From positions 1 to 64,000 of the forward strand of contig PNQY01000062.1 of assembly GCA_002909145.1 (NCBI GenBank): a stretch of DNA of 64,000 bases. The letters run 5' to 3'. The first letter of the stretch is position 1. Each line of letters begins with the position of its first letter. Of this stretch, positions 60,443 through 63,828 are shown piece after piece. The translations under genes and the position numbers were made by a program. This DNA is from Candidatus Thioglobus perditus. Lineage in GTDB: Bacteria > Pseudomonadota > Gammaproteobacteria > PS1 > Pseudothioglobaceae. Under the pieces are notes generated by a model. That model was not told the origin of the DNA. It searched no databases and saw nothing but the letters and a program-made list of their open reading frames with translations.

Positions 60443-60850
60443 TTAAGATTTTTTATCTTTCTCTTTACCACTAGCACTGAAATCCATAGTTTTAGTAAAT
60501 GGATTAAGGTGGTAATAATGCAGTGGTTTTTGCTTGCGCTGTTTTTGTTGTACCACACAGCCAACTACTTCGAACTCACTCTTAAGCTCAATTTCATCGT
60601 GTTGGGTGTTTAAAGGAATTAGGAATTTATCATTACCGCGTTCAATGTATTGACGAAAATACATATCTCCGTCATAGCGCACTACAGCGTATGCCAGGTT
60701 ATGAATCTGCATATTGGGGTCAATTATAACAATACAATTCTCACTAAACTCTGGCTCCATATAACTGCCAAGGTTTTGTAAGGCGAACGGCTCGGAGTTA
60801 GTTGAGCAATTAGTTTCGAATAATTCTTGTGGAGTATCTATGTCTGACAT
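60443..60850 (-). CDS. Degenerate S24/LexA-like peptidase domain protein
   Basis: 135 residues from ATG 60850 (a TTG start three codons earlier is possible). The beta-rich core FALQNLGSYMEPEFSENCIVIIDPNMQIHNLAYAVVRYDGDMYFRQYIERGNDKFLIPLN follows the S24 fold. At the nucleophile (GDSMEP in active members) it has GSYMEP, with Tyr where Ser stands, and the catalytic-lysine region reads MYFRQ with Arg. There is no helix-turn-helix. It is thus probably not a protease and may be a binding remnant. It overlaps the end of mutM. Confidence 0.75.
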   Translation of the reverse strand: MSDIDTPQELFETNCSTNSEPFALQNLGSYMEPEFSENCIVIIDPNMQIHNLAYAVVRYDGDMYFRQYIERGNDKFLIPLNTQHDEIELKSEFEVVGCVVQQKQRKQKPLHYYHLNPFTKTMDFSASGKEKDKKS

Positions 60851-61647
60851 TGTTTGCAATAAAACGTTGAGCGTTGATTTTGTGTAATTCGCTCTATTTT
60901 ACCATTGCAAGTGTCGCAACTATCACCTTCACGCCCATATACTAATAAAGTTTGGGCAAAATACCCAGGCGAGCCATCTACTTGAGAAAAGTCTTGTAGC
61001 GTAGTACCACCAGACTCAATTGATTTTTTTAAAATAGATTTAATATTCTCACTTAGTAGTTTGTATTTTTGTTTAGAAACTTCGCCAGCTTTGCGTTGCG
61101 GGTCAATGCCCGATTTAAACAAACTCTCACATGCGTAGATATTACCCACTCCAACTACAACCTTACTATCCATAATAAAGGCCTTGATGTTTTGCATTTT
61201 TTTGCGTGAGCGCGTATATAAATATGTATCGTCAAATAACCCCTCTAGTGGCTCAACTCCCAAAGAGTCTAATAATTTATGCGAACCGTCTTTGGAAAAT
61301 AGCACCGCACCAAAGCGCCTAGGGTCATTCAAACGCATAGATTTACCATTGGTAAAAATCACCTCGAAATGATCGTGCTTTATAAGTGGTGTGTTTTTAT
61401 CAACTACTTTAATTGACCCACTCATACCTAGATGCATTATTAATGTACCAACATCAAACTCTACAAGTAAGTACTTGCCTCTGCGTTTAATAGATTTAAC
61501 TTTTTGATTAGCAAACGTAGTATTCAGATGTTTGGGTATATCCCAGCGTAAATTATCACGATGTAATAGTACTCTTTCAACAGTTTGATTTACAATTAGC
61601 GGTTCTAGTCCACGTTTAGTGGTTTCCACCTCTGGCAATTCTGGCAT
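60838..61647 (-). CDS. mutM: Formamidopyrimidine-DNA glycosylase
   Basis: Removes 8-oxoguanine and formamidopyrimidines. 269 residues when started at ATG 61647, which gives the mature N terminus PELPEVET; the catalytic proline must follow the initiator Met, so a longer start at 61674 is excluded. Lysine of the GKYLLVEF strand, RLNDPRRFGAVLF, VGVGNIYACE and the C-terminal zinc finger CDTC...CKQC complete the family set. Its 3' end overlaps the S24-like gene. Confidence 0.96.
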   Translation of the reverse strand: MPELPEVETTKRGLEPLIVNQTVERVLLHRDNLRWDIPKHLNTTFANQKVKSIKRRGKYLLVEFDVGTLIMHLGMSGSIKVVDKNTPLIKHDHFEVIFTNGKSMRLNDPRRFGAVLFSKDGSHKLLDSLGVEPLEGLFDDTYLYTRSRKKMQNIKAFIMDSKVVVGVGNIYACESLFKSGIDPQRKAGEVSKQKYKLLSENIKSILKKSIESGGTTLQDFSQVDGSPGYFAQTLLVYGREGDSCDTCNGKIERITQNQRSTFYCKQCQT

Positions 61648-61678
61648 AATTTTTTCTAAGTTATTAATATGCAAAAGC

Positions 61679-61692
61679 TTGACTTAAGTCAA
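61679..61692. promoter_or_regulatory. FNR/CRP-type palindrome upstream of the PuuD-like gene
   Basis: TTGACTTAAGTCAA is a perfect 14-base palindrome close to the FNR/Anr consensus TTGAT-N4-ATCAA. A TATAAT at 61711-61716 puts its centre about 38 bases before the likely start, near the -41.5 activation position. Confidence 0.6.
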
Positions 61693-61710
61693 TAAATATT
61701 CACACGAGTG

Positions 61711-61716
61711 TATAAT
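61711..61716 (+). promoter_or_regulatory. -10 box of the PuuD-like gene
   Basis: TATAAT, with no good -35 at the right distance; a second TATAAT follows at 61724-61729. Lack of a -35 fits an activator-dependent promoter. Confidence 0.45.
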
Positions 61717-61759
61717 ACCTTATTATAATAATCAACTTCTAAATAGCAGAGGCAAAAAA

Positions 61760-62341
61760 ATGGAATACGTTAATTCAGTTAAAGGCAAAATTTTATTAGG
61801 ATTTTTATTTGCAGCAATAGTATTTGTTGCATTTAATGGCACAGGCAATATGAATCACTACTCAATGCATGTATGGTTACATGTTGCAGCAGGTGTTTTA
61901 TGGGTAGGATTACTTTACTACTTTAACTTTGTACAAGTACCAGGTATGGGTGAGGCCCTAGCTGATACTGACGGCCCAGGCCCAGCAGCAATTGGCAAGT
62001 ATATTGCACCTAGAGCGCTTTTGTGGTTTAGAATGGCAGCAGCTACAACTTGGGCATTAGGTTTAATTCTTCTAGCTCTACAAGGTCGTGGTGTTGATGG
62101 TGTTGTCGGTGCGTTTACTCTTGCTCAGGGTTACGAGATAATTGGCATAGGTGCATGGATGGGTACAATCATGGCATTTAATGTTTGGATCATCATCTGG
62201 CCAAATCAACAAAAGATCTTAGGTATGGTTTCAGCATCTGCTGAAGAGATTGTCACAGCGAAGAAGAATGCGGCGTTGGCATCTTCAATAAACGTAATAT
62301 TGTCTATCCCAATGTTATTAGCAATGATTGCATGGCACTAA
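61760..62341 (+). CDS. PuuD-type membrane protein without cytochrome domain
   Basis: 193 residues with four to five membrane segments (near 10-27, 35-58, 95-115, 130-150, 173-190). MHVWLHVAAGVLWVGLLYYFNFVQVP is the start of the PuuD/DUF989 urate hydroxylase membrane domain, with His residues suitable for heme or metal. Full PuuD is about twice as long and ends in a cytochrome c; that part is missing, as in short homologues often seen in marine bacteria. Urate oxidation is therefore not established. An FNR-like site precedes it. Confidence 0.75.
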   Translation: MEYVNSVKGKILLGFLFAAIVFVAFNGTGNMNHYSMHVWLHVAAGVLWVGLLYYFNFVQVPGMGEALADTDGPGPAAIGKYIAPRALLWFRMAAATTWALGLILLALQGRGVDGVVGAFTLAQGYEIIGIGAWMGTIMAFNVWIIIWPNQQKILGMVSASAEEIVTAKKNAALASSINVILSIPMLLAMIAWH

Positions 62342-62910: not shown

Positions 62911-63828
62911 ATGAAAAAACAATTAATCGCAGCTGCAGTAGCAGCTACAATGACTTCAGTTGCTATGGCTGATATTTCTATCACTGGTACTGCTAAAGCA
63001 AACTACAAGAACAAAGATGCTAACGGTACTACTACTGACACAGTTACTAACGAAGTTGACTTAGTACTTGCTGGTTCAAACGGCGACTCTAAAGTTCACG
63101 TTGAACTTTCTATGGACGGTGGTAGCTCAACTAATACTGAAGATGCATGGTTATCAACTAAAGTTGGTGACGTAAGTATTAAGGCAGGTACTTGGAACCC
63201 TGGAGATACAGTTTTTACTGGTAATGCTACTCGTTCAACTGGTAACTGGATTCTTTCAAGTAGCGTTTCTGGTGTTAAAATTGCTTTAGAAGGTGATTCT
63301 CAAAAATCTGCAACTAAAACTACTTTTTCAGGCGACCTTGGTGGTGTGAATCTTAAGTACAACATGAAGCACACTTCTGATGAAGTATATGCATCAACTG
63401 ACCTTTCTGGCTTTGCTCTTGGTTTTGCTACGATCAGTGCTGACGCTGCAAACTCTGATGCAAGTTACGTAACTCTTTCTAAAGAATTAAACGGCGTAAC
63501 AGTTACTTTAGCAGATGCTAATGCTGATTCAAGCTACACTTTTGCTGGTGATACTAGTTACTTCGGTGATTCTGCTGCTAACGGTGTGGGTGCAGGCGAT
63601 GATCTTACTTCTGTTAAGCTTGCTGGTTCTGTTGGCGGTAACAAAGTTTCTGCACGTTTCGTATCAGTTGACTCTGCTGCTTCTACAGACTTCGACGTAA
63701 ACACTTTCCAAGTAACTCGTCCATTAGCTGGTGGCTCAACTCTTGAAGTAACTTACACAGATACTGATAAAGCTGGAGCTACTAATGACACAGAAGTTTT
63801 AGACTTTGAGCTAGCTGTTAAATTCTAA
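62911..63828 (+). CDS. Outer-membrane porin
   Basis: 305 residues with a signal peptide (KKQLIAAAVAATMTSVAMA) followed by DISITGTAKANY, the start of a gram-negative porin barrel. Alternating beta-strand pattern throughout, rich in Ser, Thr, Gly, Asp, no cysteine, and a terminal phenylalanine in DFELAVKF as required by the BAM machinery. Codon choice is unusually uniform (for example GGT, GCT, ACT), which with the strong promoter, GGAG site and terminator suggests high expression. It allows diffusion of small solutes; selectivity cannot be read from sequence. Confidence 0.88.
   Translation: MKKQLIAAAVAATMTSVAMADISITGTAKANYKNKDANGTTTDTVTNEVDLVLAGSNGDSKVHVELSMDGGSSTNTEDAWLSTKVGDVSIKAGTWNPGDTVFTGNATRSTGNWILSSSVSGVKIALEGDSQKSATKTTFSGDLGGVNLKYNMKHTSDEVYASTDLSGFALGFATISADAANSDASYVTLSKELNGVTVTLADANADSSYTFAGDTSYFGDSAANGVGAGDDLTSVKLAGSVGGNKVSARFVSVDSAASTDFDVNTFQVTRPLAGGSTLEVTYTDTDKAGATNDTEVLDFELAVKF

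Follow-up and report, generated by a model that had tools for sequence, protein, structure and literature searches.

A predicted Crp/FNR-family operator upstream of a short DUF989 gene in Candidatus Thioglobus perditus

The nearest described counterpart of the site reported here is the FNR operator of Escherichia coli, TTGATN4ATCAA, from which narG and narK are activated at -41.5, while ndh and pdhR are repressed from -50.5 (PMC3688515, excerpts). According to the same excerpts, class II sites of E. coli FNR lie at most 4 nt from -41.5, an arrangement that covers 19 of the 23 activated promoters, and the class II centres listed run from -40.5 to -45.5. Similar values come from excerpts of other papers: class II sites in general are placed at -41.5 (PMC4886647), those of Sphingopyxis are centred between -40.5 and -42.5 (PMC7713065), an FF-41.5 test promoter has been used (PMC4505428), and class I sites stand at -61.5 or further (PMC4886647, PMC3688515). 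On the protein side, PuuD, a cytochrome c urate oxidase, is defined by an 8-helix DUF989 domain together with a cytochrome c, and short DUF989 proteins are set apart as variants with four helices, whose gene context differs from that of puuD (PMC4562309, excerpts). Among the papers listed by our literature search, none dealt with regulation by Crp/FNR proteins in SUP05.

Here, we examined a perfect 14-bp palindrome, TTGACTTAAGTCAA, read directly in a window of 64,000 nucleotides of Candidatus Thioglobus perditus (the window being the whole stretch of DNA that was analysed). Its centre is at 61685.5, within the 112-bp gap between the divergent mutM and short DUF989 genes (Table 1). The palindrome agrees with the inverted repeat TTGAY-N4-RTCAA at 10 of 10 positions and so belongs to the half-site class of the E. 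coli FNR sites; it differs from them in its half-site, TTGAC and not TTGAT, in its organism, and in that its regulator is a candidate proposed from sequence. A sequence-only reading of this DNA had described it as perfectly symmetric with Crp/FNR half-sites, a description that holds, the half-sites being of the FNR type. The same reading had assigned to the gene a promoter with a perfect -10 and no -35. This is true of the TATAAT at 61711, for which the hexamers 16–18 bp to the 5' side (TCAATA, GTCAAT and AGTCAA) match TTGACA at no more than three of six positions; it overlooked a second TATAAT (61724-61729), overlapping a TATTAT (61721-61726), and the TTCACA hexamer at 61699-61704. TTCACA and TATTAT form an overlapping promoter with a 10/12 match in the promoter scan.

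Table 1. Features between and around mutM and the DUF989 gene (window positions)
Feature	Position	Strand	Basis or remark
TTGACTTAAGTCAA palindrome, candidate Crp/FNR-family operator	61679..61692	no strand	read directly; genome-wide motif counts
TATAAT, -10 named in the sequence-only reading	61711..61716	+	no -35 at 16–18 bp; missing in relatives
TTCACA, -35-like hexamer	61699..61704	+	16 bp before TATTAT
TATTATAAT, -10 region	61721..61729	+	kept in most close orthologues' promoters
193-aa membrane protein gene, short DUF989 (Urate_ox_N, partial match)	61760..62341	+	ATG 61760
mutM (formamidopyrimidine-DNA glycosylase), divergent neighbour	60838..61647	-	ATG 61647
Possible weak mutM promoter: TTGACT 61692-61687, 17 bp, TATTAA 61669-61664	61664..61692	-	direct reading

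In the window alone, the exact class TTGAYN4RTCAA is found once against 0.63 expected, which is not unusual, and sites with up to two mismatches (38 against 33.5 expected) are uninformative. The significance of the motif therefore rests on its counts and placement in the whole genome (1,589,048 bases), with the reversed pattern as control. Genome-wide, there are 40 sites against 14 for the control, and 27 of the 40 are intergenic compared to 3 of the 14 (Fisher P 0.004), the intergenic share by the same rule being 8.6% of an 85-kb genome sample. The window palindrome is among the best-matching members of this set. Moreover, the exact 14-mer TTGACTTAAGTCAA occurs twice in the genome, window copy included, whereas a second copy of a given 14-mer of such composition is expected 0.018 times by chance; the other copy lies 60 nt before the gene of a Crp/FNR-family protein, P0002. 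Motif sites are also found upstream of narG, a NarK-like transporter, hemN, nrdD, cytochrome c, coxB and ctaA, upstream of all four Crp/FNR regulator genes of the genome, and upstream of a nosZ-like gene (570 bits against a cut-off of 625, its reading frame being cut by the locus end). The overlap with low-oxygen genes for which the sequence-only reading had proposed a genome scan is thus present, narG, narK, nosZ, hemN and nrdD sharing the motif class, and the motif-bearing genes, as annotated by sequence, make up a predicted regulon of the textbook anaerobic/denitrification kind. FNR-type sites also precede the genes of two inverse-autotransporter beta-domain proteins (L016:483-1409 and L131:2-1411), by 98 and 136 nt, and two similar ORFs of 61–62 aa (M-Y-Y...NYIQGW-AG-L) each lie near an FNR-like site, one in the window (~53239 and 53431) and one just after narI (L008:17311-17526).

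The sequence-only reading presupposed a Crp/FNR regulator in the genome, and four are found above the Pfam cut-off. P0002, of 243 aa, is followed by napD-, napG-, napH- and napA-like genes (names from our own reading of the translations); a paralogue, 58% identical to it, stands beside hemN; the third is a NIT-cNMP-HTH_Crp fusion beside narK-narGHJI; and the fourth is an FNR-type protein with N-terminal cysteines. These FNR cysteines are missing from three of the four regulators, so that the oxygen or redox control suggested for the DUF989 gene is no more than possible, and for P0002 in particular there is no reason to assume an oxygen sensor like that of FNR. The pattern with which FNR contacts DNA is E-x-x-S-R. 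All of the four but the FNR-type protein carry it in the recognition helix; in that protein the first position is V. Against solved structures, P0002 matches DNR (3dkw) with an E of 6.4e-9, as third best match, and its best NCBIfam model is FtrB, below the cut-off. It thus resembles the DNR/NNR denitrification regulators in this match, in its linkage to nap genes, in the E-x-x-S-R helix and in having no N-terminal cysteine cluster, and differs from them in its C-terminal CxxC...C...C tail and in having FtrB as best model.

This tail (CxxC, C, C) is common to three of the four proteins (L009:9259-9990, L011:4682-5407 and L008:5797-7347) and may form a metal or Fe-S site, at the opposite terminus from that of FNR. 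The NIT fusion is a 516-aa protein joining a NIT nitrate/nitrite-sensing domain to cNMP_binding and HTH_Crp_2 (L008:5797-7347, G000:C16, minus strand). Open frames of 509–558 aa with the same HTH, the only part compared, occur in G051, G052, G057, G058, G062 and G066; the excerpts of two papers on NIT domains (PMC8199190, PMC8014003) do not mention a one-component nitrate-sensing NIT-Crp fusion.

For P0002, 30 orthologue loci were fetched and 18 assessed, the other 12 being NIT fusions, distant hits or fragments; one of the 18 (L181, G047), whose gene starts at the contig end, was left out of the upstream count. A 10/10 site lies within 250 nt upstream in 15 of the 17 assessable cases, own copy included and with L178 and L179, identical upstream, possibly representing one lineage counted twice; of the remaining two, one has a 9/10 site and one has neither. 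Given that the identical 14-mer otherwise occurs only before the P0002 gene, that P0002 has the E-x-x-S-R helix, and that its orthologues carry such sites, P0002 is the first candidate binder. In its own promoter the site is separated from TATTAT by a 13-nt gap, while several orthologues appear nearer to 21–22, which indicates that operator geometry drifts.

We then turned to the upstream regions of DUF989 orthologues. The family comprises 83 genomes, of which 68 have a match to the DUF989 gene; eight were left out (seven in which a longer protein matches only through its C-terminal part, one truncated), 60 upstreams were examined and 59 placed, tblastn failing to place that of L203 (G034). 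The genus search yielded no genome besides the window's own. In the 42 genomes that do not belong to the more distant genus g4, the promoter element that is conserved is TATTATAAT, the window's second -10, and the TATAAT at 61711-61716 is wholly missing in relatives. A palindrome at 9 or 10 of 10 positions is found in 16 of these 42 close relatives, window included, and in several related genera, compared to a chance expectation of ~0.016 sites of at least 9/10 per 110-nt upstream at any position. In the 15 other carriers 13 or 14 nt separate it from the TATAAT downstream, so that its centre is at about -32.5 and it lies over the -35 region. The upstream conservation expected by the sequence-only reading is thus partial, since 26 of the 42 are without the palindrome and it is missing at this position from all 17 g4 genomes, including the four that carry a P0002-like regulator.

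A 9 or 10/10 site is present in 7 of the 8 genomes with intact P0002 and in 9 of the 34 without it (Fisher P 0.003, uncorrected for relatedness); for 10/10 sites the counts are 4/8 and 1/34, likewise uncorrected for phylogeny. Five clam-type symbionts (G038, G039, G035, G036 and G041; L185, L186, L188, L195 and L196) have P0002 in fragments, most with internal stop codons, and in these genomes the operator is TTAACACACATCAA or resembles it. Judging from these reading frames, P0002, broken in the clam-type symbionts and intact in relatives, appears as a case of regulator decay during genome reduction. G043 has an intact P0002, yet its operator is similar to TTAACACACATCAA; G069 has a 10/10 site and no HTH_Crp_2 match (genome 92% complete); G036 and G044 have 9/10 sites and no HTH_Crp_2 match; and G040 has a 9/10 site with an HTH_Crp_2 match only below the cut-off. 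Beyond the close clade, a search by name covering the best 80 of 571 relatives gave 57 upstreams of at least 100 nt, with six sites of 9 or 10/10 at scattered positions, which argues that the gene family as a whole does not share the palindrome. Among these best 80 of 571 relatives, the same arrangement was found only in Thiomicrorhabdus arctica (L055, a named isolate), where a 10/10 site, TTGATTTAAATCAA, stands 12 nt before TATAAT.

The sequence-only reading saw in this layout the design of a class II activator promoter. In that case a regulator at -37.5 would recruit RNA polymerase to the TATAAT at 61711-61716 and confer induction by low oxygen or nitrogen oxides. A perfect operator, a perfect -10 and no -35 speak for it, and the distance of about 38 bases to the inferred start was correctly read (gap 18, centre -37.5). 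This centre falls at the very edge of the E. coli FNR range of 4 nt around -41.5 and outside the centres listed above for E. coli and for Sphingopyxis. We compared it with the register used in the genome itself, counting every intergenic site toward each gene no more than 260 nt away, which gives 35 oriented cases (-10 being TATAAT at 5/6 or better); with the first T of the -10 taken as -12, a gap of 22 corresponds to a centre of -41.5. A -10 lies at gap 22 in 7 of the 35 cases and at gaps 21–23 in 10, including hemN, nosZ, nrdD, the P0002 paralogue, cytochrome c and a radical SAM gene, against a mean of 1.2 per gap (gaps 0–49). The curve is noisy, as gap 9, the next highest, has five cases; gap 18 is represented once in 35, by the window palindrome alone, which lacks the class II spacing of ~22 nt. 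Since, in addition, this -10 is missing from relatives and is overlapped by another promoter that does have a -35-like hexamer, the class II design was abandoned as the leading interpretation, and we regard such activation as unlikely.

Two readings dispense with a regulator altogether. The palindrome might be the minus-strand -35 of mutM, symmetric by chance: the TTGACT that forms its other half on that strand matches at five of six positions and has an ideal spacer to a 4/6 -10 ahead of the mutM ATG, this TATTAA being absent from the scan list for want of the final T that the scan demands. Its whole length, however, is symmetric and matches the regulon motif of the genome. Moreover, while mutM starts 31 nt from the palindrome in Candidatus Thioglobus perditus, in G055 and G076 the site is 3–4 nt from the mutM ATG, where it cannot be a -35, and it remains 13 nt from the DUF989 -10. 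A spacing that is kept toward the DUF989 -10 and varies toward mutM indicates that the site belongs to the DUF989 promoter, and the mutM reading is very improbable. Somewhat less remote, but still improbable, is that relatives conserve only a -35 hexamer of the DUF989 gene (TTGACT or TTAACA), of which the window palindrome would be a leftover. Indeed, TTGACT stands 18 bp before TATTAT in G061, G062, G067–G069 and G072. Against this, the right half, (A/G)TCAA, is kept alongside the left in G062, G067, G069 and G072, and in G035, G036, G038–G041, G043 and G044 it is the better preserved of the two; the window halves, 26 and 39 bp away, are unusable as a -35 for the DUF989 gene and yet perfect; and the 10/10 sites are concentrated where P0002 is intact, as counted above. 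Finally, a Crp/FNR regulator might act in another mode, class I-like or by co-activation from -50.5 or -47.5, or bind silently. The operator is close to TTCACA/TATTAT and not over them, and FNR peaks without expression change exist as a category (PMC3688515, excerpts). Class I sites, though, are those at -61.5 or further, nothing specific favours such a mode, and we give it little weight.

Taken with the genome-wide motif set, these comparisons argue that the palindrome is very probably a real Crp/FNR-family operator, as far as sequence can tell, and that it probably acts on the DUF989 gene. In the explanation we prefer, it would be an operator of the genome's Crp/FNR regulators within the DUF989 promoter, bound most likely by P0002 or by close relatives keeping the E-x-x-S-R helix, and the bound regulator would lower or modulate transcription rather than activate it in the class II manner. 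Repression is favoured because the operator of related genera covers the -35 region, although here it lies 18 bp further up: from the conserved TATAAT at 61724 the gap is 31 and the centre -50.5 (gap 28 and -47.5 from TATTAT), as for ndh and pdhR. We put a net repressing effect at about even chances. The reading as a whole, a predicted operator that modulates, and most likely represses, the DUF989 gene when the denitrification regulators would be active, is held with the same balanced confidence.

The protein concerned has 193 aa and no cysteine, hence no cytochrome c, and matches Pfam Urate_ox_N at residues 128–193 only. Long helices are predicted at 35–68, 84–107, 126–153 and 161–192 with a weaker one at 7–26, giving four or five by the model. 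It therefore shares with PuuD a partial match to Urate_ox_N/DUF989 and differs from the 8-helix domain plus C-terminal cytochrome c (CXXCH) that define PuuD (PMC4562309, excerpts). With the cytochrome c and half of the membrane domain missing, the PuuD-type label given by the sequence-only reading was dropped; four transmembrane helices, a partial DUF989 match and no cytochrome are the marks of a short DUF989 protein, and this protein agrees with them. H41 and H193 are invariant in 36 aligned relatives. The predicted structure is a bundle of helices, modelled with intermediate confidence (mean pLDDT 78, pTM 0.71), for which Foldseek returned no solved structure at E 0.001; a sequence search against solved structures also gave no match. 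VIA-align reached Z 13.8 with designed helical bundles and Z 11.9 with cytochrome b6f (rmsd 3.1 over 135 residues); for this model, such matches are below the level at which the tool is trusted for helical bundles and are not specific. Gene context in the named loci (mutM, housekeeping neighbours and a gene that we read from its sequence as argD-like) gave no hint of function. The DUF989 gene is followed at 62911-63828 in the window by a porin-like protein of 305 aa, which is probably secreted and has no match in Pfam; similar proteins follow it in 15 named loci.

The principles of FNR-type control are unchanged by this site, which would be ordinary regulation in a new place. Through its operator, a short DUF989 protein that is widely conserved and uncharacterised would join the low-oxygen/nitrate regulon of a sulfur oxidiser that denitrifies, and this link would be a first indication of the conditions that call for the protein. 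The relatives provide a series in which the same operator moved or decayed. It is conceivable, though doubtful, that the promoter was rewired here, given that the operator lies over the -35 in relatives and that ~18 bp with a second TATAAT and the -35-like TTCACA intervene in Candidatus Thioglobus perditus, where the operator has stayed perfect. If so, what was a steric repressor site would now act from upstream and give another output at a second start, and the locus would offer a natural experiment.
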